A model generated the notes under the pieces. That model was not told where the DNA came from. It did not search any database and was given only the letters and a program-made list of their open reading frames with translations. The position numbers and the translations under genes were made by a program. From Pirellulales bacterium (GTDB lineage: Bacteria; Planctomycetota; Planctomycetia; Pirellulales; PALSA-1355): 64,000 nucleotides of DNA. Shown here piece by piece: positions 2,940 to 39,980 of the stretch. Every line of letters begins with the position of its first letter. Position 1 is the stretch's first letter. The stretch is from NCBI GenBank assembly GCA_022844125.1, contig JALHMI010000005.1:335768-399767 (forward strand). The letters run 5' to 3'.

Positions 2940-3374
2940 TCAAGTGCTGACGAGCGTCTTCACTTTGAGGATGATTGGGAGATACGTGGCCACGCCCTGA
3001 GCGCTCTCCTCATAGCGAACCACGGACGTTTCAATGCTGGTCTGTTCAACAATTCCACCCAGCATCCATTCGGTCGCGAGCTTGTCGAGAACGGCATCAA
3101 CTGCATCCTGAAACTCGCCTTCCGATGCGGACTTGCCGACTCCGTTTATTTGAATGGCCATGACGACATCAATGCTGAACGTGTAAACCCGATAATTCTG
3201 GAACGTATCCTCATCGGTTTTCTGTTCTTCGATCCCAATCAGGTAGAACCGAGCAGCCGGGAAGCCGGTAAATGAGGCCGTGCGGCCTGTCAGAACGCCG
3301 CCTTTGAGTTCGGAAACCGCCGCGAGGCGGGTTGAGAGAGCCGATCTGATCGAGGCGATGCTCGCGTTAGGCAT
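2940..3374 (-). CDS. tail terminator / tail completion-like protein
   Basis: The 144-residue product begins MPNASIASIRSALSTRL and has the mixed alpha/beta pattern and N-terminal amphipathic helix typical of the small proteins that cap tails, with a central strand YRVYTFSIDVVMAIQ. Position decides the call: it follows the HK97 gp10-like and head-closure genes and precedes the tail tube. Its ATG overlaps the end of the gp10-like gene by 8 bases, so the head-tail genes are translationally coupled. No catalytic residues are expected. Exact equivalence to lambda gpU is inferred. Confidence 0.6.
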   Translation of the reverse strand: MPNASIASIRSALSTRLAAVSELKGGVLTGRTASFTGFPAARFYLIGIEEQKTDEDTFQNYRVYTFSIDVVMAIQINGVGKSASEGEFQDAVDAVLDKLATEWMLGGIVEQTSIETSVVRYEESAQGVATYLPIILKVKTLVST

Positions 3375-5794: not shown

Positions 5795-7201
5795 TTAGGC
5801 TGCGAGTTTCAAGATCGAGAGAGCGTTCGGGTCGACCACCACGCTATCGAAGAACTCGATGACGCGGACGGAAGCCTGAGCGGTTTCACCGAGGCTGACT
5901 GGGGAGCCGCCATCGTCGATCGTAGCTTGATCGAGGATATCAACACGGAAGCCAGGCTCGAATCCGCACCAGACGTGTCCGAGGTTACCGAAGATCCCCA
6001 CCTTGTCATCCAAGGCAAGTGCCGGCGAGATTCCGTCCGGAAGGCTGAGCACACGCTGTGCGCTGTAGCCGAAGATCTTCTTCTGGTTGCGAAGCTCGCG
6101 GGATTCGTCGAGGTAAACTCCCGTCGTGTCTTTCTTCTTCTTCAGTTCCTGCATGAGAGCATGCGGAATGAAGTACTGAGGAGCACCTCCGATGATTCCC
6201 GATCCCTGGATGTCGTCACCCATGAGGTACTGAGCGGCGAGAGCCGATTCGAGGTCAACAAGATCATCGAATTCGAGCGAGGCGTAACCACCAGCGGCAG
6301 AACCGCGGACGACGTTGTTGGTGGAGCTTGCACGGATACCGTTACCGGTCGTTCCGAACACCAAGGCGTCTTCGGCCTTGGTCATTTCGATGATGGCCCA
6401 CTGCAACAAGAGGGGGATGATTGCTGGATTTGCCTTTTCAATCATTTCGATTGAGACAGGGCGAGTCTTCGACATGATCTTCTTGGTCGTCAACTGCTTT
6501 TGGCTGAGCACCGGCTGACTGTTGGTTCCAGCAGCTGCTTCAGCAACGACTGCGGCGGAAAGCCCCGTCGTCACAGTCGGGATGTTGATGACTTCGTTTC
6601 CGTTCATCGGGATCATCGTGGCGAACTTACGCACAAGCGACGTGCGAGCAATGTTCTCGTACAGCATGTCCGAGAAGAGCTGTGGAGCGAGATATCCACC
6701 CGACGAGTCAGTGCCGAGCGACAAGGCGCGAGTCTCGCGACCGTACACACGCTTATGGTATTCGCCTTCCTCATCAAGGATGCGCTTATACGCATCCGGT
6801 TTGCCCTGGCGAGCGAGGTAGATGCCGCGGAACACCTTGGCAGCCATTTCCCAGTCGGCACGCTGGTTCGTCCATCGTTGCTCAGAGGATACGAAAGATC
6901 TCTCGGCAATCTCCTTGGCCTCGGAGGCACCGAGGTGGTATTTGCGTTCGACTTCCTTTGCGGCTTCCTCAACCGCTTTCTTGGCCTCGGATGCTCCGAG
7001 GGTTCCCATGCGTTCGAGCAGCGTAGTGAATTGCTCAGAGGTCATGATCGCCGCGCCGCGCTTGGCGAGGTCATCACCGCCGATCGATACGGCGTATTCT
7101 TGCAGGATCGCATTGCGTTCCTGATCGGTCTTGGCCTCGTTGTACCGCTTCGCCAAGTCAGCGGGGAGGTTTACCTCCGTTTTTTCAAGAGTCTGTTCCA
7201 T
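5795..7201 (-). CDS. HK97-fold major capsid protein
   Basis: The 468-residue protein has the layout of HK97-type capsids: an N-terminal charged helical delta-like domain (residues 1-150, AKRYNEAKTDQERNAILQEY...), which the protease would remove, then TDSSGGYLAPQLFSDMLYENI (in part) marking the start of the mature fold, then the N-arm/E-loop and the P and A domains ending near the C-terminus. It follows the protease gene, overlapping it by 17 bases. Start at ATG 7201 is preferred over 7234. The capsid shell and its cleavage by the neighbouring protease are inferred from the family. Confidence 0.93.
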   Translation of the reverse strand: MEQTLEKTEVNLPADLAKRYNEAKTDQERNAILQEYAVSIGGDDLAKRGAAIMTSEQFTTLLERMGTLGASEAKKAVEEAAKEVERKYHLGASEAKEIAERSFVSSEQRWTNQRADWEMAAKVFRGIYLARQGKPDAYKRILDEEGEYHKRVYGRETRALSLGTDSSGGYLAPQLFSDMLYENIARTSLVRKFATMIPMNGNEVINIPTVTTGLSAAVVAEAAAGTNSQPVLSQKQLTTKKIMSKTRPVSIEMIEKANPAIIPLLLQWAIIEMTKAEDALVFGTTGNGIRASSTNNVVRGSAAGGYASLEFDDLVDLESALAAQYLMGDDIQGSGIIGGAPQYFIPHALMQELKKKKDTTGVYLDESRELRNQKKIFGYSAQRVLSLPDGISPALALDDKVGIFGNLGHVWCGFEPGFRVDILDQATIDDGGSPVSLGETAQASVRVIEFFDSVVVDPNALSILKLAA

Positions 7202-8297
7202 CGGTAGATGTGGGGAATGAATTGACAACGACATTGTTCATGCCGTCGATGAGAGACAACGCATCCTTCACCGGTAGTCCACGGCGTAGGGCTTCTACGC
7301 CAGCCTCCGTATATGCCCGCGTCAAGGACGGCAGGTCACTCAGGAGGGAGAATGGAACTTGAACGAAGGCTTTTCGTTCGGCCTGCGGGGCTTCCGCAGA
7401 TGGAGTGGGGATGATTGGCTCAGTTGGTGCTGCTTCTGCCGGCGTCTCGGTTTTAATGTCTTCGGCAACCGGCGCCGGAATGATTTCCTCCGGGGAGGGT
7501 TCCATCGCGTCGATTCCTTCGGTCATTCGTTTCCACGCTTCCTTTTCGTCAGCGGGTAGTTCCTCGTCGAGAACTTTCGTGAAGAACTTCTTCAATGCCC
7601 GAGAAGCGAGCTTGTTCACCGGCTGTTTATTCTTGTAGTACTTCCGCCATTTCTTCACGTTTTCGTCAGTTGGCTCATCCTCGTCGTCCTCCTCGGGTTC
7701 ATCGTCTTCCTCCTCTTCCATTTCTTTGGCTCGCGTCTCGACTTCGAGAAGCATTGTGCGAAACTTATCCGCGTCTTCTTCTCTATTCAAAGCCTTCGAA
7801 CGTCTGACAATCAGCGTTTCGTCATTTGCCGGAATCGTCACGATCGAGACTTCAAGTAGCTTCTGACGTTTGTAAACGCGGACAGAATCACCGTCCTCTT
7901 TCTCCTCGTTGGTCCATTCAATCGCCTCAAAGCCAACCGAGAGGCCGTTCAAGAAGCCTTCTGCGATCAGCAGGAAGACCTTGTAACCGAAATCATTCAC
8001 CTCTTTCGGGGTAAATTGAATTCGCATCAAGAGCTTGTTCCCTTCAACGCGAACCGTTTCCGGGAGTGCCCGAGCTACTGGCAGACCAGCAGAGGCCGTG
8101 AAGCCGCGATCGTCGTGCGCATAGAGAATCTGCGGGTTGCGCTTGAACTGTTCAAGGTTCCAACCGGCCGCATCAATTCGTGAGTTGTAACTGTCCAGTG
8201 CATCGGTTGAAGCGATAATGTCGACCGTCAGATCGGTCGTGTTGACCGCGCGCGTTTCGACGGAGGTATGGATGCGTTCCTGGGTAGCGGTTTGCAT
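7185..8297 (-). CDS. HK97-family prohead protease with C-terminal scaffold-like extension
   Basis: The 370-residue protein has an N-terminal serine protease domain of the herpesvirus/HK97 type: His61 in QILYAHDDRG, and Ser120 in GFLNGLSVGFEA, with the following strand LLEVSIVTIPAND. After about residue 165 comes a long acidic low-complexity region (EMEEEEDDEPEEDDEDE) and a Pro/Ala-rich tail, so the C-terminal half probably acts as an internal scaffold cleaved away with the capsid delta domain. Its ATG overlaps the TGA of the MuF-like gene (TGATG), and its end overlaps the capsid start. Confidence 0.92.
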   Translation of the reverse strand: MQTATQERIHTSVETRAVNTTDLTVDIIASTDALDSYNSRIDAAGWNLEQFKRNPQILYAHDDRGFTASAGLPVARALPETVRVEGNKLLMRIQFTPKEVNDFGYKVFLLIAEGFLNGLSVGFEAIEWTNEEKEDGDSVRVYKRQKLLEVSIVTIPANDETLIVRRSKALNREEDADKFRTMLLEVETRAKEMEEEEDDEPEEDDEDEPTDENVKKWRKYYKNKQPVNKLASRALKKFFTKVLDEELPADEKEAWKRMTEGIDAMEPSPEEIIPAPVAEDIKTETPAEAAPTEPIIPTPSAEAPQAERKAFVQVPFSLLSDLPSLTRAYTEAGVEALRRGLPVKDALSLIDGMNNVVVNSFPTSTDGTDS

Positions 8298-9070
8298 CAG
8301 ATCGGGGGGAACTGTGAGAGCACGCGATTGCGTTGCTCTAGAAATGCTCGACGCAATGATACCACAAAGCGATTCTCAATTGCGCCGTGCGTTCGAAGGA
8401 ACTCTTCGCCGAGCACTCGCTTGCGATCTTCCGGCAATCCCGCGCCAACAATCGCACAGCGGCAGTTAATCGTTTCACCTGGTGGCAGCATCGGATCACC
8501 CGGAGCAAATGCCGAAGCGCCGCCGATTTTGAAGTAGTCATCGATTCCGACAATTTGGCCATCGGCCTCGGCATGCGTCTCCCGTTCCCGCCCATCTATG
8601 ACCGTCGACCATTCTTTCTGCTGATAGCCTTCCTTTCCTAGCGTCTTTACCGTTCCATCATTGATGACACCGGTCAGCTCTGTCCTAGCAATTCGGAGCG
8701 AGCGATAGCCCGTTGACTGTCCGTAGAGTTGATCGATCCGTTTGGCTAGTTGCCTTACACTTTCACCCTGCTCTATCGATGCCTTCAGAGCCGCGGCGAT
8801 TTCGTCCTTCGTGGTGAAGATAGCCTTGGAAGCATGTTCGAGGCTTCGAGCTTCGAGTGCTTTTCGCACGGCGAGCGTGAACACATCTTCCGGCTTGGCC
8901 TTGCCCGGACCCTGCTTGAGCCCCATATCGATGCCCTTGCGAAAGGCGAGCACGAAGAATGGGAAATAAAGCGCAGCCCACGATTTCTTCTCCGCCTCTT
9001 CATCGAAGAACTCGTCGGCCGAACTGGGGATGCTTTCGAGGAGCCGTCGCTGTGTTTGTTTTTGCTCTAC
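8297..9070 (-). CDS. MuF-like head morphogenesis protein, apparent GTA start
   Basis: The frame encodes 257 residues if read from a GTA at 9070. Its C-terminal half holds the phage Mu gpF/SPP1 gp7 type domain with SLRIARTELTGVINDGT, WSTVIDGRERETHAEADGQ, and the closing PPGETINCRCAI, whose cysteines probably hold a metal. The frame opens after a TGA and has no ATG, GTG or TTG until 8953, which would cut 39 well-coded residues (EQKQTQRRLLESIPSS...). The GTA overlaps the portal TAG stop as GTAG. MuF proteins are minor head proteins bound to the portal. Confidence 0.85.
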   Translation of the reverse strand, partial: VEQKQTQRRLLESIPSSADEFFDEEAEKKSWAALYFPFFVLAFRKGIDMGLKQGPGKAKPEDVFTLAVRKALEARSLEHASKAIFTTKDEIAAALKASIEQGESVRQLAKRIDQLYGQSTGYRSLRIARTELTGVINDGTVKTLGKEGYQQKEWSTVIDGRERETHAEADGQIVGIDDYFKIGGASAFAPGDPMLPPGETINCRCAIVGAGLPEDRKRVLGEEFLRTHGAIENRFVVSLRRAFLEQRNRVLSQFPPI

Positions 9071-10344
9071 GTTAAAGGGGCCAACTCAGGGGGCGGCTGG
9101 CCGGCAGGGATGCTCATGAGCGGCTGATATGGCACGTCCGTCACACCGACAATGCCGAGCGGCTCCATCCCGAACATCTTGCGCATCTCGTCTGGCGAGA
9201 TTGCTCCGCTATTGAACAGCAGCGATGCTGTTTGGCGCTTCTCCTCCACGTTGTCTGGCACCGGATCGTCAAAGGAGAACTCATTCCTCTGATTGCCTGT
9301 GAATGCCGGCTTGAAGTCATTGTTCAACGTGTCGAATACGCTTTCGACGAAAGGCAGAACTCCGAATCGCATGAACACGTAGATTGCGGCCTCGGCGTTG
9401 GCACGAGTCACGGAATCGGTCTGACCAAGCACCTCCAAGCTGACGCCATAGTTCGCGAGAATCTCGTCCTTATTCGAGTCCTTGCCCTCCAAGAACTGCA
9501 TGTCGGAGTTCGTCTGCTGGGTCTCCTTGAAGTCCATACCGCCTGTGAGCACGCCGACTCGCCCAGCATTCTCAGTACCCTTGTAGAGTGAATCCCATGT
9601 CGTCTTAAGTCGCTTAAGCCTGGCCTCATCCGGATTCTTGTCTTCAACTTTGATGAACCCCGGCGGAACACCGTTATTCTCAAGCCGCTTGAGGTTCATT
9701 TTCTCAGCTTCTCGGTAGGTATCGAGCGCGTACCGAATTTGCTGTGTCGGCGCATGACCGCGCGTCCAGTCCTTCGGATCAGGGAGCTTGAAGTGGACTA
9801 CGTCGAGTGGATCGAGAATGGTTTCTTTGCCCGGAATCTTATAGATGTAGTGCAACAGATCGCCAGTGTTCGGGTCGTTCTTGATGTAGACGTTGCCCGG
9901 CACCAAGAGATCGAGACGCGTCGGCACACCATTGATGCGACGTCGGCCGTCGAGCAACCAGAAGGCTTCACCAAGTAAGCACAGGTGCATTCCCGTGATG
10001 TAGCGAAGCTGGAATCCCGTGAGCTTCGAGCGGCCCGCGGCAATCGGCTGCGGACAATTGAGGACTTCGAGCAAGTCGCTCTCATCGTTCTCGAAGTACC
10101 GATAGCCGTCCTTTGTTTTTGTTCGGAGCCGCGGCGTGATGCGGGCTAGTTCTCCCGCGATCTTCTTTACCGAAGCCCCAAGCCAGACGTTGTAGTCAAA
10201 TGCTTCAAGCGATTCCTGCGGCTTAAACGGTGCGGGAACGCCGGTGTATTGGTAGTTCAACTGGTTCGGCAGCGGCTGTGACCGAAAGACGCGTCCAAAA
10301 GCTGAAGCAGCTTTGCCGAGACGCGACACGAAAGATTCGGGCAT
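9067..10344 (-). CDS. HK97-family portal protein
   Basis: The 425-residue protein forms the head vertex ring through which DNA is packaged. It has the family order: N-terminal basic segment, the clip/stem helices, TRANAEAAIYVFMRFGVLPF near residue 350, and the DPLDVVHFKL plus YGVSLEVLGQ elements. I start it at the ATG at 10344; the upstream ATG/GTG at 10386 adds 14 poorly coded residues. Downstream, the TAG stop overlaps the MuF-like frame. The nearest terminase gene is 4.6 kb upstream, unusually far, because of the intervening accessory island. Confidence 0.93.
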   Translation of the reverse strand: MPESFVSRLGKAASAFGRVFRSQPLPNQLNYQYTGVPAPFKPQESLEAFDYNVWLGASVKKIAGELARITPRLRTKTKDGYRYFENDESDLLEVLNCPQPIAAGRSKLTGFQLRYITGMHLCLLGEAFWLLDGRRRINGVPTRLDLLVPGNVYIKNDPNTGDLLHYIYKIPGKETILDPLDVVHFKLPDPKDWTRGHAPTQQIRYALDTYREAEKMNLKRLENNGVPPGFIKVEDKNPDEARLKRLKTTWDSLYKGTENAGRVGVLTGGMDFKETQQTNSDMQFLEGKDSNKDEILANYGVSLEVLGQTDSVTRANAEAAIYVFMRFGVLPFVESVFDTLNNDFKPAFTGNQRNEFSFDDPVPDNVEEKRQTASLLFNSGAISPDEMRKMFGMEPLGIVGVTDVPYQPLMSIPAGQPPPELAPLT

Positions 10345-10447
10345 TGACGTGTGGGATTGTACACGTCGATGGAGCGATGACGCCAATCATGATGAGCTAT
10401 GCTTGATTGCGTGGACCCAATCCACTGTCACTCATGAGGGCCGGACA

Positions 10448-16511: not shown

Positions 16512-17288
16512 TCATTCCTCGGAGGGCGTGTCAGTCTCCAGCTTCTCCGGGCCGGTGGCTTCTGCAAGTTCCTTCATTCGTGCCGTAAAGGCATCTCGAG
16601 TTGTGATGGCCTCCGCGTGCACTTTATCCTGCTCGGCCTTAAACCACCCATAGAAGTCCTCGATCTTTTGCTTGTACTGAGCAAAGACATCAACAAGATC
16701 GATATTGTTTCCTGCATTCGCAATGAACTTCTTAGCATCGGATGGCCAACCCGAGAATTTGTCCACCTCGGCTTTACTGATCGGAATACTCCACGTGATC
16801 CCGCGGGTTCCGAATTCGAGACCAAGGCCGACGAAGACCAGGGGCAATCTTACGTGTTGACAGAACTGCCTCAGACCAATCACGAAACGCGCCAGGGGGT
16901 CCGTGCTGAAACGCTTGTTGATCTCCTCCTGGTATTTGTCGATCGCACCAGACTCTTTGTACATCTCGTTGTAGAACACGCGCGTCGTATCCACCAACGT
17001 CATTGCGCCGGCCGTGACGTTGTGCATCAACCTAGTAATCTCAACGAGGTATTCCTCGACCCATTGAGAAGTCTGCATCCTGTAGAGCACCTCTTTGTGG
17101 TCTTTGGGCCGTAGCTCCTCGATATATCGCTCCCATTCCCCGTAGTTCCGATGAAACACGCTCAGCGACAATTCGAAGACCTTGATCTTTGTCAGTGTTT
17201 TACACGCATCAGACTCTCGCCACGCTTCGACAACCTCAATCCGCGTGAGCATCTTCTTGAGTCGTTCATCGAGTTCAGGTGTCGTCAC
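16512..17288 (-). CDS. hypothetical protein between terminase subunits
   Basis: From a GTG at 17288 (14-base overlap with the terminase small subunit end) the product is 258 residues; a longer start at 17336 would overlap by 62 bases. The protein is helical and soluble, with WERYIEELRPKDHKEVLY and LRQFCQHVRLPLVFVGLGLEF as its most ordered parts. No family recognised. Its place between the two terminase subunits suggests it was added as an accessory gene. Confidence 0.5.
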   Translation of the reverse strand: MTTPELDERLKKMLTRIEVVEAWRESDACKTLTKIKVFELSLSVFHRNYGEWERYIEELRPKDHKEVLYRMQTSQWVEEYLVEITRLMHNVTAGAMTLVDTTRVFYNEMYKESGAIDKYQEEINKRFSTDPLARFVIGLRQFCQHVRLPLVFVGLGLEFGTRGITWSIPISKAEVDKFSGWPSDAKKFIANAGNNIDLVDVFAQYKQKIEDFYGWFKAEQDKVHAEAITTRDAFTARMKELAEATGPEKLETDTPSEE

Positions 17289-17895
17289 GATTTTTTCCTT
17301 CTTGCAGCATGTTCGCAGCCAATTCAGCAGCCCCATCTTTCGAGACCTTTACGGTGTGATCAATGTGCTGCGGATTCTTCCAACCAAAGTTGGAAAGCCC
17401 AAATATGGTTTTGGCCGGGGGAACTCGATTTCTGTGCAGCTCCTCTTCAAGTTCGCGTTCGATCCTGAGATACGCGTTTTTTATAGGGCCGGAAAACTCG
17501 TCACGCTCGCCATAGCTTTTGACTGTTTCCTTCTCACAATCAAGCCAAAGGGCAAGTCCCGTGACCGTCGGAGTGATTCGCTCCTTCAGCTTCCCTGAAA
17601 TAAGTAGGCAACCACGCGTCGGAAGGTTGTATTCGTCGAGCACTCTGCCGCGGCACTCCTTGCAACGAGTAACAATTACAGCCTTCTTCTCCTCCCACTC
17701 GAACGTCTCGCCGTGCGTGTATTGTCGAGTGTCTTCTTCTCGTTCACATTCGATGAAGTAGGACTCAATTGACGCCGCCAGTTCCGCTGCATCTTTGAAT
17801 TTTAGCGGTCTTCCGCATTCGCAGTACGCCTCGGCGACCACGCCAGCAACTTTCTTGGGTTTGCAACAACGGCCGCAGAGATTTACCTCATCCAT
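17275..17895 (-). CDS. terminase small subunit with N-terminal zinc motifs
   Basis: The 206-residue protein contains the family signature TVTGLALWLDCEKETVKSY, GPIKNAYLRIERELEEEL and TIFGLSNFGWKN (residues about 105-175), as in small terminases that recognise packaging sites. The N-terminal 100 residues are unusual: CGRCCKPKKVAGVVAEAYCECG and RCKECRGRVL look like zinc-binding knuckles. It starts the packaging module, upstream of the terminase large gene. Confidence 0.8.
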   Translation of the reverse strand: MDEVNLCGRCCKPKKVAGVVAEAYCECGRPLKFKDAAELAASIESYFIECEREEDTRQYTHGETFEWEEKKAVIVTRCKECRGRVLDEYNLPTRGCLLISGKLKERITPTVTGLALWLDCEKETVKSYGERDEFSGPIKNAYLRIERELEEELHRNRVPPAKTIFGLSNFGWKNPQHIDHTVKVSKDGAAELAANMLQEGKNRDDT

Positions 17896-23383: not shown

Positions 23384-25708
23384 TTACAGGTTTGCATCCA
23401 AAGCGGCCGCGATTGCCTCAGCCGGATTCTTACAGTGCTTGTTGCGAATGACGCCACCCCGCCCGAGATACCAGACCGTGTTGCCCTCGGCTGAAATTTG
23501 TTCACCGGGGTCGCGCCATTTCCCCAACGTCAGCAGTCTCACGACGACCTGCCGCTTGTCGTTTTCGTCTCGAATGTCGAGAAGTTTGCGTCCTGCTTGC
23601 TGGCCGATCAGATGCTCGCCCTTGGGATCGAGGCAATACACCAGGTCGTCTTTCCACACGATAAAATCGGGAAAGAAATTAAAAGTATCGCCCGCCTGAA
23701 GCAGCGGAATCGAATAGCCACCGTTCGAGGGATTACGGACCCACGGATATTTGAGCGAATCGATCGCGCGAGCGAAGGGACGCTCAAAGTCTTTCAGATC
23801 GCTATAGCCACGGTGCAACGAGTACTTGAACGTGTCGTGATCCTTGGGCTTGAGCAGCACCGGCCCTACGGTGTACGGGTTTCCTTCCTCAAACGAAAGC
23901 TCACTGTTTTCGAGATACACTTCGACCAGCTTCCGTGCTTCGTCTGCAAGAATACCAGCGGCGCTGCTCGTCATTTCGATCCGTGCGTCGAAACGTGAAT
24001 CGGCCCAATCCATCGTCATGCTGGCGCGAGGATAGAGCGACTGGACAGCACGGCGGACAATCCAGCGGGCCATGACTCGGTTGCTGTGGGCCATTTCCTC
24101 GACGACGACCGGCACTTCCACTTCACCGGCACCTACGTCGTGGATTGCTCGCAAACGTTCGCCCCGTCCCGTCGTAATCCGGCTCTCTTCGCGGAAGTCA
24201 GGAATCCGGGTAATGGCCTCGAAGATCGGCTCGTGCTTCGTAATGACGTGGATTTCCGGAATGGTGCGAACTTCCTTCGGTTCGACGCGACTGCGGTCAC
24301 GGTCCCGAGGATCAGCGTATGCATCGAGACGAATCTCCGGCATCTCAGCCATGATCTTTCGCTGAACAACTTCGAGAATCTCCGGAAACACTTGCCGGTT
24401 ATCGATACGAATGTAGAAGTCGCCCGTGTTCAGATCGGGATCAGGATAGTGCTTGGCTCCAGGCTGACGTAGCACGCGACCGATCACCTGCTCAACCTGA
24501 ATCGACGAGCCCATGCTCTTGTCGATGTACGCGAAGCAGCAGGCCGGATCGTCCCAGCCTTCTTGCAGGCTTTGATTGAAAATAATATGCCGATAGTTAC
24601 CGGCACTGAATACCGCGAAATCGTCTTCGCCACCGGAGAAATGAATAAACTCGGCCGGGGGCGGGAACGCCCGACGGTCAAACTTGAGGTCGCAGTACAC
24701 TGCAATCTCTTCAGGCGGGATGCCTTTGGTTTCAACGAGATAGCGCCAGATTAATATCGGCGGGGCCTTGCGATCCTTGAACGCGGCCGAGGCATTGTCC
24801 GGCCGACCATCTTCTTGCGAAATATTCGTGCGGCAAACGTAAATCGCCTTCGGTAGAAATCCCGTCCGGAGCTTCTTGGCTTTCTTCGTAACAATCGACA
24901 TGGCTTCAATCATGTCGTTCAAGGCCGACTCCATGATCGTCGCATAGCCGCCGATAATGATTTGCTTCTTCACTAGCCCGCGTTTCACAACATCCTTGCT
25001 GTTCACGCTCGTCACAAGGTCTTCGTCTGACCAGCCGTACTCACGCAGGCGATTGATCAATCGAGCCAGCCGTTGCGGGTTCCGCATCGTCGCACTGGCG
25101 ACCAGGATGATATCTGGTTCCAATTCGAGCAGCAGCTCAGTTTGCTGGTCTGAAAGATTGTGGCCTTCGTCATAGACGACAATAAGCGGCCGTCGCACAC
25201 CGTTCGTAGCCGGACGGTTCTTGATCAAATCCCACAGCGATTCACTGCCACGGTCCTCGTGGACCTGATGCACGCGAAGCGAGCCGTCCTCTTTATCCTT
25301 CTGATTAAAGCTGCCCACGGTCGACATGGCGATGATGGGCGTCGTCGTATCCCAAATCTCCGAGGGAGTCAGGTCGGACAGCGAGCAAAGAACGAAACCT
25401 TCAACGATGTGGGCATATTTTCCACCACCTTGGAAATTTGCGTGCGTCTGCTCGACGACGGCCTTCGCTTTCGAAATCCAAAGCACGAGGGGCTCGCCCC
25501 CCTTGACCGCCGTACGGAGTTGGGCCACAGCATCAGCCAAGATTGGCGTCTTACCGGCACCTGGCAGAGCCGACAGAGCCTGGTAGTACGGCACTGCCCA
25601 TTCGGCAAATTCCATCGGTCGACGCCGGTCAGCAGCAAGCTTGCGATAGCGGGCGACGATTTGGTCTGAAGCCTCGGTCTGAAAACCGAACAGTTCAATG
25701 CTGGCCAT
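23384..25708 (-). CDS. res: Type III restriction enzyme, Res subunit
   Basis: The 774-residue protein is a superfamily 2 helicase-nuclease. Motif I PGAGKTP is at residues 49-55, motif II is DEGH at 181-184, motif III SATM at 206-209, motif VI QVIGRVLRQPG in the second RecA domain, and a PD-(D/E)XK nuclease near the C-terminus (FFPDFIVWKDDLVYCLDPKG, ending about residue 698). With the Mod subunit it would cut DNA at a distance from two unmethylated asymmetric sites while hydrolysing ATP. It starts where the mod gene stops (shared base at 25708), so the two are one operon. Confidence 0.93.
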   Translation of the reverse strand: MASIELFGFQTEASDQIVARYRKLAADRRRPMEFAEWAVPYYQALSALPGAGKTPILADAVAQLRTAVKGGEPLVLWISKAKAVVEQTHANFQGGGKYAHIVEGFVLCSLSDLTPSEIWDTTTPIIAMSTVGSFNQKDKEDGSLRVHQVHEDRGSESLWDLIKNRPATNGVRRPLIVVYDEGHNLSDQQTELLLELEPDIILVASATMRNPQRLARLINRLREYGWSDEDLVTSVNSKDVVKRGLVKKQIIIGGYATIMESALNDMIEAMSIVTKKAKKLRTGFLPKAIYVCRTNISQEDGRPDNASAAFKDRKAPPILIWRYLVETKGIPPEEIAVYCDLKFDRRAFPPPAEFIHFSGGEDDFAVFSAGNYRHIIFNQSLQEGWDDPACCFAYIDKSMGSSIQVEQVIGRVLRQPGAKHYPDPDLNTGDFYIRIDNRQVFPEILEVVQRKIMAEMPEIRLDAYADPRDRDRSRVEPKEVRTIPEIHVITKHEPIFEAITRIPDFREESRITTGRGERLRAIHDVGAGEVEVPVVVEEMAHSNRVMARWIVRRAVQSLYPRASMTMDWADSRFDARIEMTSSAAGILADEARKLVEVYLENSELSFEEGNPYTVGPVLLKPKDHDTFKYSLHRGYSDLKDFERPFARAIDSLKYPWVRNPSNGGYSIPLLQAGDTFNFFPDFIVWKDDLVYCLDPKGEHLIGQQAGRKLLDIRDENDKRQVVVRLLTLGKWRDPGEQISAEGNTVWYLGRGGVIRNKHCKNPAEAIAAALDANL

Positions 25709-30354: not shown

Positions 30355-30385
30355 AAAAAAGCTCGACCGTTTGAGGATCGAGCTT
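30355..30385 (-). terminator. rho-independent terminator after the tRNA-like gene
   Basis: On the minus strand the stem AAGCTCGA/TCGAGCTT (30378-30385 with 30359-30366) is followed by TTTTTTG. It lies just beyond the 3' end of the tRNA-like gene (30391) and so would end a transcript containing it. Confidence 0.75.
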
Positions 30386-30390
30386 CTGTG

Positions 30391-30539
30391 TACTGGCGGC
30401 AGGGATTTGACGAGGCATCAGGGGTCAATTCCTGATAGCGGGAACTCGTATAGTCACCCTGCAATCTAGAGAAGCATCGGCAGTGTGGATCTTTGACACA
30501 CATCCTAGCCACCGCGTCTACCTATTCCGCCACGCCAGC
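30391..30539 (-). tRNA. tRNA-Leu-like gene, interrupted or degenerate
   Basis: On the minus strand the sequence starts with GCTGGCG and ends CGCCAGTA, a 7-bp acceptor stem pair with a discriminator A, and contains the class II D-arm GGCGGAATAGGTAGACGC of tRNA-Leu. The 3' part TCAAATCCCTGC completes a T-arm with GCAGGGT, but 45 bases separate them (30410-30454), including a 6-bp hairpin ATCAGG/CCTGAT. The anticodon region is not canonical (a GTGTG/CACAC stem with a 9-base loop). Total length is 149 instead of about 85-90. It may be a pseudo-tRNA or an interrupted tRNA gene; it is followed by a terminator. Confidence 0.45.
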
Positions 30540-30551
30540 GATGTGAATGAG

Positions 30552-30878
30552 CTATTGCATGTTCGCACAGCTGATCACCGTCGAGGTGAACTGGCGGCAG
30601 TCCTTGAATCCACTGCCTTTCTCGCAGTGCTTGCGTTCAAGAACGCACATGTTGGCTTCGTAGTTTTTGACGCGAAGCTCCTTGGCGATGCCCGTCACAG
30701 GATCATGTTCTGTGTGAACGTAGCGAACCTGCGGCTCGATAGATCCATTGCGGACACGATCAGAGATCTTGTACTGCTGGTCGAACCATTGTGTGGTGCG
30801 ACTGAAAGGAGCGGCAGAAGCCGCAAGGGGCGACAGCAACGATGCTGCGAAGAGAATGGAAGTGATGAACTTGTTCAT
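30552..30878 (-). CDS. putative exported protein, 108 aa
   Basis: A signal peptide (MNKFITSILFAASLLSPLAA, ending in ASAAP) is followed by about 85 residues with four cysteines (NMCVLERKHC..CRQFT..SC), which could form disulfides outside the cell. It lies directly upstream of the tRNA-like gene in the same direction. Function unknown. Confidence 0.6.
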   Translation of the reverse strand: MNKFITSILFAASLLSPLAASAAPFSRTTQWFDQQYKISDRVRNGSIEPQVRYVHTEHDPVTGIAKELRVKNYEANMCVLERKHCEKGSGFKDCRQFTSTVISCANMQ

Positions 30879-31782: not shown

Positions 31783-32586
31783 TCATTTGAAGATTACTTT
31801 ACGGGCACCGCCATTCTTAACGTTGCGGATATTGTCGAGGCCGGCCTGTCCGATCCCCGCCCATAGATCGATACGCATGCCCTTGATGGCACCGCCGCGA
31901 TCGTGGCAGGTTACGTCCCCGATCCCTTCGATATGCAGTTTCGTGCCGAGGGGAATATTCGGAGGGCAGGCAACGACCGTGAACGGTTCAGCGTTTCGGA
32001 CATCGAATCCGTTCGCAGTGTGGAAGCAATCGCCGGCCGTACCGTCTTTGTTCAGGCCGCAGTTGATTTCCACATCTTTCAGATAGCTCTCGTGGTAATA
32101 GCTCTGCTGATCGGGAACGGGCGAATAGTACCGGGAAACGTTGTAGACCGTGCCTTGCTCCGGCTCACGCCAGGTGCCTTTGAGGGATTCAACAAGGTGC
32201 GTACCAGGGCAGGCGGTCGGACTGGCTTCCTTATGCGGGATGATCTGCTCGAATGCGTACATCTTGTCGAGCTTCGCAACCAACGATTTTAAGGCATCGA
32301 GCTGCTTGGCCGAGGGCTGTTCGTGTTCGAAGTTCCCGGCGACAACGACGGCAAGTGAACTGAGATTTACTTCCTGATTTCTCGTGTGACCGGTTCGTTC
32401 GGAGAGCGAACGATTCTGCTTGACCGATCCGTCTTTCCCGACGAGGAAGTGATAGGCGATGTGCGAACCGTAGTTGGATTCTGCATAGCCTCTTGCGGCG
32501 TGATTCTTTTCGACGGATGAGGACTGAATGTCCGATTCCGAAGCTGTGTGATGAATCACGAGTATCCGGGGAGCACCGACTGCTAC
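31783..32586 (-). CDS. endolysin: amidase_2 plus 3D domain
   Basis: The 267-residue product from a GTA at 32586 has an N-acetylmuramoyl-L-alanine amidase domain with zinc ligands in ILVIHHTASES (His12), PHKEASPTACPG (His118, Cys126) and GSHIAYHFLVGKDG, and a C-terminal 3D domain (YYSPVPDQQSYYHES..., GDVTCHDRGGAIKGMRIDLWAG) with its three conserved aspartates. It would cut the peptide from peptidoglycan during lysis. The GTA overlaps the TAG of the upstream gene as GTAG; the only ordinary start is a TTG 25 codons upstream (32661) within the other gene. No signal peptide, so a holin is needed. Confidence 0.88.
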   Translation of the reverse strand, partial: VAVGAPRILVIHHTASESDIQSSSVEKNHAARGYAESNYGSHIAYHFLVGKDGSVKQNRSLSERTGHTRNQEVNLSSLAVVVAGNFEHEQPSAKQLDALKSLVAKLDKMYAFEQIIPHKEASPTACPGTHLVESLKGTWREPEQGTVYNVSRYYSPVPDQQSYYHESYLKDVEINCGLNKDGTAGDCFHTANGFDVRNAEPFTVVACPPNIPLGTKLHIEGIGDVTCHDRGGAIKGMRIDLWAGIGQAGLDNIRNVKNGGARKVIFK

Positions 32587-32891
32587 TCCCCGCTTCCAAA
32601 AGGGCGATCTTCTTGTTGGCAGGCGAACTCCGGGGTCTCGCCGTATTCGTGCGTGAACCAATCAATAGATTCACGAAGCTTGGGGCACTGAGTCTGATCG
32701 CTTCCGTAGCAAGCGGCCGTACGTGTCCCGATGATTCCGCAGTGCCCTCGACGGGCCTTCATGCGCAATTCGTACGATTGTCGCTGGTATTCTTCAGCAG
32801 ACAATCCATTCGGGATTAGGCTGAAGCCGAGAAACAGGATGAACACGGCGGCAAACCCGATTGCCATGTTCTGTTTTGTCAAATAGCTCAT
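32583..32891 (-). CDS. small membrane protein of the lysis region, 102 aa
   Basis: The 102-residue protein has one N-terminal membrane helix (residues 9-29, MAIGFAAVFILFLGFSLIP), then a Cys-containing soluble part (CGIIGTRTAACYGSDQTQCPK). It sits directly before the endolysin and overlaps it by its stop. It may be a spanin or a lysis regulator that works in the periplasm. Its ATG overlaps the previous stop as ATGA. Confidence 0.55.
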   Translation of the reverse strand: MSYLTKQNMAIGFAAVFILFLGFSLIPNGLSAEEYQRQSYELRMKARRGHCGIIGTRTAACYGSDQTQCPKLRESIDWFTHEYGETPEFACQQEDRPFGSGE

Positions 32892-36343: not shown

Positions 36344-36670
36344 ATGGGCTTCCTGATTTCAAAGGAGTTTCCTCCGCGATTCCTCAAGGGCGAGGAAGTA
36401 GTAGGCCACGAAATGCAGCTCACGATTCGTGAGGTCAAAAAGGAGAACGCCTACAACCGCAACACGAACAAGAACGACCAAATAATCGTCGTCTATTTTG
36501 AAGGCAAGGAGCGTGGTGTCGTGGTCAAGAAGCAGCGAGCGATGGACATCAAAGCCCTGTACGGGGACGACACAGATCAATGGAAAGGTAAGGTGGTCCG
36601 CCTCTACACAGAAAAAAAGAAAGTCAAAGACGGCATCGTCGATGTTATCCGCTTCACCTCTCCTCAATGA
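36344..36670 (+). CDS. possible OB-fold DNA-binding protein, 108 aa
   Basis: The 108-residue protein is basic and beta-rich: FEGKERGVVVKKQRAMDIK, GKVVRLYTEKKKVKDGIVDV, ending IRFTSPQ. This pattern is common in small phage proteins that bind nucleic acid and accompany exonucleases. The start is two bases after the exonuclease stop and its stop overlaps the next ATG (ATGA), so it is coupled to both. The fold call is an inference. Confidence 0.55.
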   Translation: MGFLISKEFPPRFLKGEEVVGHEMQLTIREVKKENAYNRNTNKNDQIIVVYFEGKERGVVVKKQRAMDIKALYGDDTDQWKGKVVRLYTEKKKVKDGIVDVIRFTSPQ

Positions 36671-38624: not shown

Positions 38625-38673
38625 CGGCTTGCCTGGGGGTCAAGAGGTCGCAGGTTCAAATCCTGTCGCCCCG
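38625..38673 (+). repeat. attachment-site-like 3' fragment of a tRNA-Pro gene
   Basis: The sequence reads from an anticodon stem-loop (CTTGC CTGGGGG TCAAG, anticodon GGG) through AGGTC and the T-arm GCAGG TTCAAAT CCTGT to CGCCCCGA, the 3' acceptor strand and discriminator of a proline tRNA. The 5' half, including any CGGGGCG partner, is missing upstream. Such fragments are left at integration sites within tRNA 3' ends. It also encodes the last residues of the integrase (GATGFEPATS), a usual sign of tRNA-derived att sites. Confidence 0.8.
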
Positions 38674-39980
38674 ATTTTGACAACGTCTGACACGAATTGC
38701 CAAACGGCGTCGAAACCCTTGCAGTGGCGAGGGTTTTGTCGTTTCTGGTCAGTGCCTTCGTTGCCATTCAAGGACACCGAATGCCCTTCAGAGCCGCCAG
38801 AAATGCAGCGCATTTGCAGCGCGGCGTCAGGCTCCGATACAGCGCGGGGGGTATCCGCGGCAGCAGGAACTGTTTGTTGCACAACCGGCAGCGCGGCAAT
38901 CGCACGGGCCTGATCGTTGATGCCGATATGCGTGTACTTCATTGTCGTTTTAATATCGGAATGCCGTGCCAACTCTTTGGCCTCAGGCAGCGACGCACCG
39001 TTGCGAAGCAGTTCCGTAATGTAGGTATGCCGGCCTGAGGCATGGAAGTCGGCAACGCCTTCATCGTTCTTGTACGGGATGCCGACCCGTTCCAGGTCCT
39101 TTCGGACCATCACGTGCGTCTTGCGTTGCCCAAGCTTCGGGAAAAGCTTCTCCCCGGGCTGTATTCCGAGCAACCACTGGCGCAGCATTGCCGCCAACTC
39201 AGGATGCAACGGAAGTACATCTTCTTTCCGATGCTTCGAGGCCCTGGCCGCGACGGTAATCGTCGGTGGTGTGGCGTCTAGATCAAAGCTCTTCGGAGTC
39301 AGGCTGCCCAGCTCCTTGCGACGAAGGCCAGTCAGGTATGCCATGAGATAAATGCGTGCCCGTTGCTCGCCCGTGTACCGCTGAATGCTGATGCCGCTCG
39401 TGCGTGCCGAGGCGATAAGCTTGGACACTTCGTCGGCCGTGAGTGCCCTTCGGCCATGGCGCACATCGACGGCCGTATTGAGCCTCTCGACTCCGAGCAT
39501 TGGATTGGCCAACATCCGCCTGCTCGTAACGCACCAATTGCAGAAAGTACCGAATGCTTGCAAATACTGGTTGTAGGTTCGATGGCCCGTTGACTTCTCC
39601 TTGCGGCGCGACCGCAGGTACTTTTGAACGGTTTCTGCCTCAATGTCGGCCAACGTCTTGAATTTGCAGCCTTCCACCGTCCGCCGCACCTGCCCCATCG
39701 TGAGCTTGACGTATTGAGGCGAATTATCGCCCAGGCTTTCCTGAAATTCGGCAAGGTGCTCTTCAATTGGCAGAAGCCGCTGCTCCGTAATTCGATCCAG
39801 CCCCGCATCAACCATACCAGTACGCCGGAGCCGGGCTTCCGTTTCCAGCTTGCCGGCCAACTCTTCGGTCAGCCCTTTGTCAGTAAACCCGATTGCCGTC
39901 CGGCGTTTGCCACGATGGTCAAGGTACTGAATCGTGTAGGGCTCGGACTTGCGCTTTGTTCGCTTGAATATCGATGCCAT
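38640..39980 (-). CDS. tyrosine integrase
   Basis: The 446-residue protein is a phage/ICE-type integrase with N-terminal arm-binding and SAM-like core-binding parts and a C-terminal catalytic domain: Arg in YLTGLRRKELG, HASGRHTYITELLRNG (His-x-x-Arg), LARHSDIKTTMKYTHIG (His and the catalytic Tyr). The final residues are read from the tRNA-Pro fragment. It would integrate and excise the element between tRNA att sites. It lies next to an excisionase-like gene and points at the att site. Confidence 0.92.
   Translation of the reverse strand: MASIFKRTKRKSEPYTIQYLDHRGKRRTAIGFTDKGLTEELAGKLETEARLRRTGMVDAGLDRITEQRLLPIEEHLAEFQESLGDNSPQYVKLTMGQVRRTVEGCKFKTLADIEAETVQKYLRSRRKEKSTGHRTYNQYLQAFGTFCNWCVTSRRMLANPMLGVERLNTAVDVRHGRRALTADEVSKLIASARTSGISIQRYTGEQRARIYLMAYLTGLRRKELGSLTPKSFDLDATPPTITVAARASKHRKEDVLPLHPELAAMLRQWLLGIQPGEKLFPKLGQRKTHVMVRKDLERVGIPYKNDEGVADFHASGRHTYITELLRNGASLPEAKELARHSDIKTTMKYTHIGINDQARAIAALPVVQQTVPAAADTPRAVSEPDAALQMRCISGGSEGHSVSLNGNEGTDQKRQNPRHCKGFDAVWQFVSDVVKIGATGFEPATS

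Follow-up and report, generated by a model that had tools for sequence, protein, structure and literature searches.

The tRNA-Leu-like element found in a prophage of a Pirellulales bacterium is almost certainly a member of a widespread phage RNA family that lies outside Rfam 15 and is new. As judged by comparison with its relatives, it is well supported as a prophage-encoded RNA derived from or mimicking tRNA-Leu. The architecture of the family is also well supported: the upper half of a tRNA is kept, a variable middle stands in place of the anticodon arm, and the branch to which this element belongs adds a hairpin inserted into the T-loop, while another branch is free of the insert. At the gathering threshold of Rfam 15, no match to the element was obtained in 13 insert-type loci, the present one included, or in 20 insert-free loci. 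No description of the family was found in the full-text literature searched, outside which lie preprints and most subscription papers, and prior notice is possible. The family has apparently been overlooked, though the genomes of the carrier phages have been public for years.

The stretch of DNA analysed (hereafter the window) comprises 64,000 nucleotides (C5:335768-399767) of a genome of 6.44 Mb, which holds a full set of normal tRNAs, including all five tRNA-Leu isoacceptors. A prophage occupies much of the first 40 kb of the window (1-40 kb), and the element lies inside it. The element is preceded by a small ORF, the stop codon of which falls 12 nt before the 5' end of the element; for the 108-aa protein encoded upstream, no relative was found in GTDB contigs, PHROGs or Pfam. 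The features are as follows.

5795-7234: major head protein of the prophage
9067-10386: portal of the prophage
17275-17895: TerS of the prophage
23384-25708: ResIII-like gene of the prophage
30357..30387, minus strand: intrinsic-terminator-like hairpin and U run
30391-30539, minus strand: whole tRNA-Leu-like element (position 1 = 30539, position 73 = 30391)
30391, minus strand: position 73, an A; CCA not encoded
30392..30404, minus strand: T-stem 3' strand CCCUGC and acceptor 3' strand CGCCAGU
30405..30409, minus strand: T-loop C56 A57 A58 A59 U60
30410..30454, minus strand: 45-nt T-loop insert, starting ACUAU
within 30410..30454, minus strand: apical hairpin of the insert, AUCAGG/CCUGAU
30449-30445 / 30414-30410, minus strand: basal helix of the insert, ACGAG/CUCGU
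30455..30456, minus strand: T-loop U54 G55, placed by comparison with insert-free relatives
30457..30462, minus strand: T-stem 5' strand GCAGGG
30463..30513, minus strand: variable middle of 51 nt, replacing the anticodon and variable arms and ending in U48
30514..30532, minus strand: U8 and Leu-type D-arm UGGCGGAAUAGGUAGACGC, D-stem GCG/CGC
30533..30539, minus strand: acceptor 5' strand GCUGGCG; the helix covaries in relatives
30552-30878: small ORF with a signal-peptide-like start
31783-32661: amidase/3D-domain lysis gene of the prophage
38640-39980: integrase of the prophage

The acceptor of the element, GCUGGCG/CGCCAGU, is paired at 7/7 positions (six Watson-Crick pairs and a G-U at 1:72) and closes the RNA as in a canonical tRNA, with no extra pairs beyond it. 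Together with the Leu-type D-arm and the 6-bp T-stem GCAGGG/CCCUGC, this bears out the original prediction, in which acceptor, D-arm and T-arm were held to fit tRNA-Leu. A canonical T-arm consists of a 5-bp stem and a continuous 7-nt loop of UUCRANY type, whereas the loop of the window element reads U-G-(45 nt)-CAAAU. The 45 extra nucleotides between the T-arm halves, the hairpin within them (resolved into the apical and basal helices listed above) and the terminator (a hairpin and U run at 30387-30357), all of which had been read from the letters, were recovered as well. Excision of the 45 bases had been expected to restore a perfect T-arm; it leaves a loop of UGCAAAU rather than UUCAAAU, and the UGCAAAU loop of the insert-free relatives places the insert between G55 and C56. 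The alternative offered at that time, a structured RNA with a T-loop insertion, was right, with the insertion site correct to within one base. The anticodon arm had been called not canonical, and no arm with a 5-bp stem and a 7-nt loop follows the D-arm; this absence is a larger oddity than the insert and is common to the family.

Standard tools gave little at this position. Whether or not introns were allowed, ARAGORN with its default settings reported no tRNA or tmRNA at the element. At lowered thresholds it returned three candidates in a 400-nt stretch, none with the element's acceptor or D-arm; two of the three overlap each other on opposite strands. The element was matched neither by ARAGORN -m nor by the Rfam tmRNA model. 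A search of 2.1 kb of the window against Rfam 15 at E up to 1 gave two sub-threshold matches and no family covering the element; one of the two, Thr_leader, lies across the terminator and the 3' part of the element and scored 20.5 bits where 55 would be required. BLAST with the window element found nothing in phages, and among 57 genomes searched with it a match was obtained only in its own. The folding energy of the single window sequence is unremarkable (z -0.98) and uninformative by itself; the proof of the element rests on its relatives.

These relatives were found by pattern. When IMG/VR was scanned with patterns that linked a Leu D-arm with a T-arm some distance away, many aberrant Leu-bodied genes were present among the matches listed, and one of the loci, L245, carried the T-loop module of the window, TGACTATACGAG...CTCGTCAAAT, flanked by another 6-bp stem (GCGAGG/CCTCGC versus GCAGGG/CCCTGC in the window). 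A pattern derived from the module led to 26 viral loci, L245 included, and a pattern leaving the insert helix free led to 17, ten of which were new; nine of these ten (seven distinct) have an acceptor paired 7/7 and a T-stem paired 6/6, and L511 is unfit. A BLAST search started from one member, copied by hand, turned up named phages that carry this RNA minus the insert; the T-loop of that form, UGCAAAU, was read in five of these phages. A pattern for this insert-free form gave at least 120 matches, of which 119 occurrences were read, 112 of them distinct. Elements of the family are about 90-205 nt in length. Over genome contigs, a T-loop-insert pattern gave 18 matches; on inspection by eye, L370 and the interrupted L358 are the only ones that seem genuine. 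In a scan of the phylum, 5/392 genomes were matched and the window element was the only real case, under a pattern that demands GACRCG, misses members with GACGCT and hence gives no survey of the phylum; three of the other matches were rejected as ordinary tRNA-Leu genes, judged by sequence, and the fourth, L328, lies in unrelated sequence.

The sequences compared were as follows. The insert-free set comprised 85 nonredundant sequences among the matches listed; 71 nonredundant sequences among the matches listed had a full acceptor, and 40 were used for the model alignment. The insert-bearing set started from 28 sequences (the 26 loci, L370 and the window), of which 19 passed a strict parser and 17 were nonredundant; the insert-type loci L329, L330, L333, L335, L338, L341, L342, L343 and L344 were not counted. 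The insert-free search pattern prescribed the T-loop, the D-arm from position 9 onward and, in the T-stem, both inner G-C pairs; those positions are therefore invariant by construction, and U8 and U48 were left free.

Among the matches listed, the acceptor is paired at 7/7 positions in 74 and at least at six in 82 of the 85 nonredundant insert-free sequences, and each of its first six positions shows four Watson-Crick types. In the insert-free alignment of 40 sequences, which was preselected for full acceptors and is therefore biased toward acceptor pairing compared with the unselected count just given, changes on both sides occur at 7/7 acceptor and 4/6 T-stem pairs, and the covariation score is 0.705 versus 0.169 in shuffled and at most 0.127 in slid alignments. 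The 17 insert-bearing sequences, the window among them, show such changes at 6/7 acceptor and 3/6 T-stem pairs (score 0.481 versus 0.127), with the T-stem 100% paired. Compensated changes of the D-stem were also observed, namely GAG/CUC in Leuconostoc phage LN34 and U10-A26 in L334.

A covariance model (R1) was built from the insert-free alignment only, with the window and the insert-bearing sequences left out. This model gave the window element 47 bits (E 2e-9 in 399 kb from 43 sources) and ranked it first over the whole source genome (E 3.2e-8), where the best ordinary tRNA-Leu reached 33 bits, below the window element. It is scarcely credible that the element is a prophage tRNA-Leu gene in decay that took up two random insertions, or that its resemblance is due to chance: the noncanonical middle and T-loop and the five normal Leu isoacceptors already present in the genome would suit such a reading, but it is refuted by the covariation of relatives from many phages that share the same plan, and the E-value of 3e-8 given by R1 speaks against it as well. 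The suggestion of a pseudo-tRNA is likewise not supported, since compensatory changes maintain both the acceptor and the T-stem.

Of the 26 other insert-type sources, R1 matched 22 (6 over a short stretch) and left 4 unmatched; in these four loci (L330, L333, L335 and L343) no Leu D-arm could be recognised beside the T-loop module, which may be an independent RNA module serving its own role. The R1 score alone does not separate the groups, since 11 sources of a further viral Leu-like group, which has a normal T-arm, also reach 33-56 bits. On comparison of the relatives, the window is tied to its own branch by the T-loop module UGACUAU-helix-CAAAU on a 6-bp T-stem. The left half of the insert base, TGACTATACGAG, was imposed by the search; the matching right half, CTCG, was not imposed and is present in 17/17 aligned insert-bearing sequences, including the window. 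Relatives found with the helix-free pattern show changes on both sides of the insert base, which reads CGAG/CTCG, CGAA/TTCG (L505), CTAATT/GATTAG (L509) or ATGGGC/GCCTGT (L502). The insert thus has a conserved frame. Nothing in these sequences marks it as an intron: no Rfam intron family matched the window stretch, and the insert is lastingly present in relatives. In L358, a MAG contig, the T-loop insert is itself split by 479 nt with a promoter-like stretch inside, and a gene for a 140-aa PDDEXK_5 (homing-type) endonuclease lies in it (L358:279-701), with GACT at both junctions; this interruption looks as if a homing gene had been aimed at the conserved module. This endonuclease raised the idea that the T-loop insert had arisen from a group I intron, which was rejected because Rfam gave no match in L358 at E up to 1.

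The variable middle has a structure of its own. In 76 nonredundant insert-free middles among the matches listed, a helix ends 2 nt before the T-stem, with a mean of -7.6 kcal at this offset versus about -2.6 at remote offsets. A second helix completes an H-type pseudoknot; among the same matches listed, both stems have a mean of -11.2 kcal versus -4.0 in shuffled sequences and 30/76 middles reach p 0.05 singly, under a score whose constraint was derived from inspecting the same sequences. A looser score (-16.3 versus -12.1 shuffled, about a third at p 0.05) separated the two more poorly and was replaced. The signal is weaker in insert-bearing middles (-10.9 versus -5.7; 5/17 at p 0.05). An H-type pseudoknot predicted in the middle is therefore supported for the family, and in the window element a pseudoknot is only possible: the candidate GUGG/CCAC plus CUAGG/UCUAG has p 0.21, which is not significant alone, and a GUGUG/CACAC hairpin competes with it. 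Among the matches listed, 71 pairs of insert-free loci have both 100-nt flanks at least 70% identical, and in 27/71 of these pairs, which share loci and are not independent, the middles are no more alike than in random pairs (mean 0.56, 95% point 0.66). In the pair L382/L487, for example, the flanks are 97% and 90% identical, the stems 100% and the middles 58%. Such swapping was seen in the insert-free branch only. In these pairs the middle is replaced and stems and flanks stay, in the manner of specificity domains.

The frame around this middle is the upper half of a tRNA. A canonical anticodon arm was detected in 0/85 insert-free sequences among the matches listed (2.2 expected in shuffles), in 5/5 normal tRNA-Leu used as a control, and in 1/17 insert-bearing sequences, namely L370, with a T-loop-like loop UUCAAUU. 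The absence of an anticodon excludes decoding by these RNAs. U48, imposed by no pattern, is present in 85/85 insert-free sequences among the matches listed and in 17/17 insert-bearing sequences, and across the aligned family the predicted elbow residues U8, A14, G18, G19, U48, C56 and A58 are kept. An acceptor that is free to vary yet must pair, together with a kept elbow, points to recognition by the shape of the tRNA upper half. Beyond the acceptor, pairing is barely extended in the insert-free form (0:73 in 50/85 and -1:74 in 57/85 among the matches listed; expected 0.43 and 0.47), and at least 3 further pairs occur in 7/17 insert-bearing sequences, unlike tRNA.

These data also bear on whether the RNA is charged. 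LeuRS might leucylate it despite the missing anticodon, the leucine then being used off the ribosome or the pool drained. In S. aureus, a special tRNA-Gly has a T-loop that reads GUGC. The A73 of the window would agree with a charged RNA, LeuRS is reported to need no anticodon (PMC9976931), and the S. aureus tRNA-Gly is reported to be reserved for peptidoglycan (PMC4810233). However, A73 is found in only 52/85 insert-free sequences among the matches listed (U in 22/85) and 12/17 insert-bearing sequences, CCA is encoded in 0/85 of the former, among the matches listed, and 0/17 of the latter, and the acceptor pairs vary freely. A single dedicated synthetase is hard to reconcile with a position 73 that varies, and a charged RNA is rather improbable.

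Several known RNAs resemble the family in part. With tRNA-Leu it shares the acceptor, the sequence of the Leu D-arm, the elbow residues and often an A at position 73, but it has no anticodon arm and no encoded CCA, the middle is of pseudoknot type, the T-stem is of 6 bp instead of 5 bp, and the T-loop is UGCAAAU or bears a hairpin insert. With tmRNA (SsrA) it shares a tRNA-like upper half without anticodon and a pseudoknot. Despite this likeness, the elements are about 90-205 nt, have a D-stem, give no tmRNA match and lack the G3-U70 alanine pair (U3-A70 in the window; G-U at this pair in 1/40 insert-free and 0/17 insert-bearing sequences), and a tag reading frame was looked for by eye alone. 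Enterococcus phage EFDG1 carries a true tmRNA (L514:1145-1495; Rfam, 140.6 bits) that ends where its element begins, so both stand side by side. The tRNA-like structures of plant RNA viruses are the 3' ends of RNA genomes, with a pseudoknot in the acceptor; they too represent viral tRNA mimicry with pseudoknots, but here the carriers are DNA phages and the pseudoknot lies where the anticodon would be. ToxI and other type III antitoxin RNAs are short H-type pseudoknot RNAs carried by phages or plasmids, a trait shared by the family, in which, however, the pseudoknot is embedded in a tRNA-like frame, with no tandem repeats, no toxin gene seen adjoining and no Rfam match.

The insert-free form was read in Lactobacillus phages Lenus and Satyr, Lactiplantibacillus phage Gut-P1, Weissella phage WC29P3 and Enterococcus phage VEsP-1, and further named carriers, likewise read in sequence, are Enterococcus phage EFDG1, Leuconostoc phage LN34, Liquorilactobacillus UCMA21115, Listeria phage LP-101, Lactobacillus phage phiJL-1 and Bacillus phage phi3T, whose element lies at 50326-50192 of KY030782. 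The feature tables inspected hold no RNA feature on the element; a hypothetical ORF extends over its 3' end in phi3T. Within 1 kb of the elements, the density of tRNA genes is eight times that found elsewhere (0.263 versus 0.033 per kb, from 72 and 30 genes). A tRNA gene lies within 1 kb of 32/124 insert-free loci among the matches listed and of 1/18 insert-bearing loci; this clustering was seen in the insert-free branch only. Other structured RNAs were also observed nearby: in LP-101, the Rfam families rli62 and mcrA closely flank the element on the same strand (L515:2812-2944 and 3187-3237), and in phi3T a DUF3800-VIII RNA lies about 1.2 kb away.

In many prophages the insert-free element has a late-activator gene (ArpU or RinA in the annotation of VEsP-1 and LP-101) on one side and HNH, TerS and TerL genes on the other. 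Around 153 elements among the matches listed, a set that was not deduplicated, contained some loci too short for neighbours to be visible and was surveyed in same-strand clusters, proteins of late-activator type were found in 20 and 16 loci (medians -207 and -427), HNH in 28 (median +536), TerS in 17 and 12 and TerL in 24 and 19 (about +1.4 to +1.9 kb), and a few such neighbours stand on the other side of the element. Insert-type members have mixed neighbours, with endonucleases as the commonest named families at no more than 4 members each (59 neighbouring proteins). The main rival to a trans-acting mimic is a cis-acting leader, that is, an antitermination or other regulatory RNA heading phage late operons with a merely tRNA-like fold. 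Many insert-free genes among the matches listed do lie in likely late-operon leaders near these genes, but others lie in a tRNA array (EFDG1) or between yonN- and yonK-like genes (phi3T), and the window element follows the lysis gene region and has its own terminator; we regard the leader role as unlikely. The nearness to terminase genes and, in several phages, to record ends (36569-36664 of 36674 in phiJL-1; 146-231 of 28022 in LN34) would also suit a DNA-packaging RNA analogous to the pRNA of phi29. This role is very improbable: the window element lies far from TerS, the EFDG1 element sits among tRNAs, and no Rfam pRNA match was obtained in the window, in 12 other insert-bearing loci or in 20 insert-free loci.

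Herein, we tentatively favour a trans-acting mimic of tRNA-Leu with an exchangeable domain, because the acceptor varies but pairs, the elbow is kept, decoding is excluded and position 73 varies. As an explanation of the whole, a tRNA-Leu mimic acting in trans through a swappable middle is the best that we can offer and still falls somewhat short of probable; the mechanism behind it is, if anything, slightly more doubtful. First, the RNA would be cut out by the tRNA-processing enzymes of the host and would act in trans. Second, its tRNA-like elbow would be held by some tRNA-recognising factor, and the exchangeable middle would supply specificity. Third, the altered T-loop and the 13-bp stack would keep the RNA out of normal translation; on established biochemistry, the stack and G55 suggest avoidance of ordinary EF-Tu use. 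The simplest role would be that of a decoy for tRNA-sensing host factors, perhaps tRNA-cleaving defence or toxin proteins, no defence system being tied to the element. In its most general form, a phage RNA class with a constant tRNA elbow as handle and an interchangeable pseudoknot domain, one branch of which adds a T-loop arm, might serve as a weapon or shield in conflict between phage and host or between phages, a reading that we hold possible and not yet probable. In this family, a tRNA body has been stripped of decoding and rebuilt around a pseudoknot, with an arm inserted at the T-loop elbow in one branch. If the middle sets specificity, the family represents an RNA-based layer of phage conflict that is open to direct test, and it offers a natural test of recognition by RNase P, RNase Z, synthetases, EF-Tu and tRNA-targeting defences.

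Several related oddities were observed. A second viral Leu-bodied group without an anticodon arm (L057, L085, L112, L143, L151, L156, L164, L167, L171, L182 and others) keeps a normal 5-bp T-stem and a loop of UUCGAAU type; several of its middles resemble pseudoknots by eye, and its R1 scores are 33-56 bits. L123, L125, L129, L153, L158 and others are class II tRNAs of chimeric identity: they have a Leu-type D-arm and a long variable arm, but position 73 is G, often followed by CCA, and the anticodon loops, for example CUGUUUA, are Asn/Asp-like. L055, L063, L089, L121 and L152 are tRNA-Leu genes, apparently of UAA type, with anticodon-loop inserts of roughly 18-35 nt by eye. Two host genes, tRNA-Ser(CGA) and tRNA-Ser(GGA) (G000:C10:264629-264711 and C7:144182-144263), have unusual D-arms and low scores of 35 and 32 bits. 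Plasmids of 38-40 kb from Pediococcus, Weissella and Lactiplantibacillus (H112-H114) show two-piece BLAST matches to an insert-free member and are perhaps phage-plasmids. Finally, L132 carries two D-arm/T-arm pairs of the family in tandem within a tRNA array.
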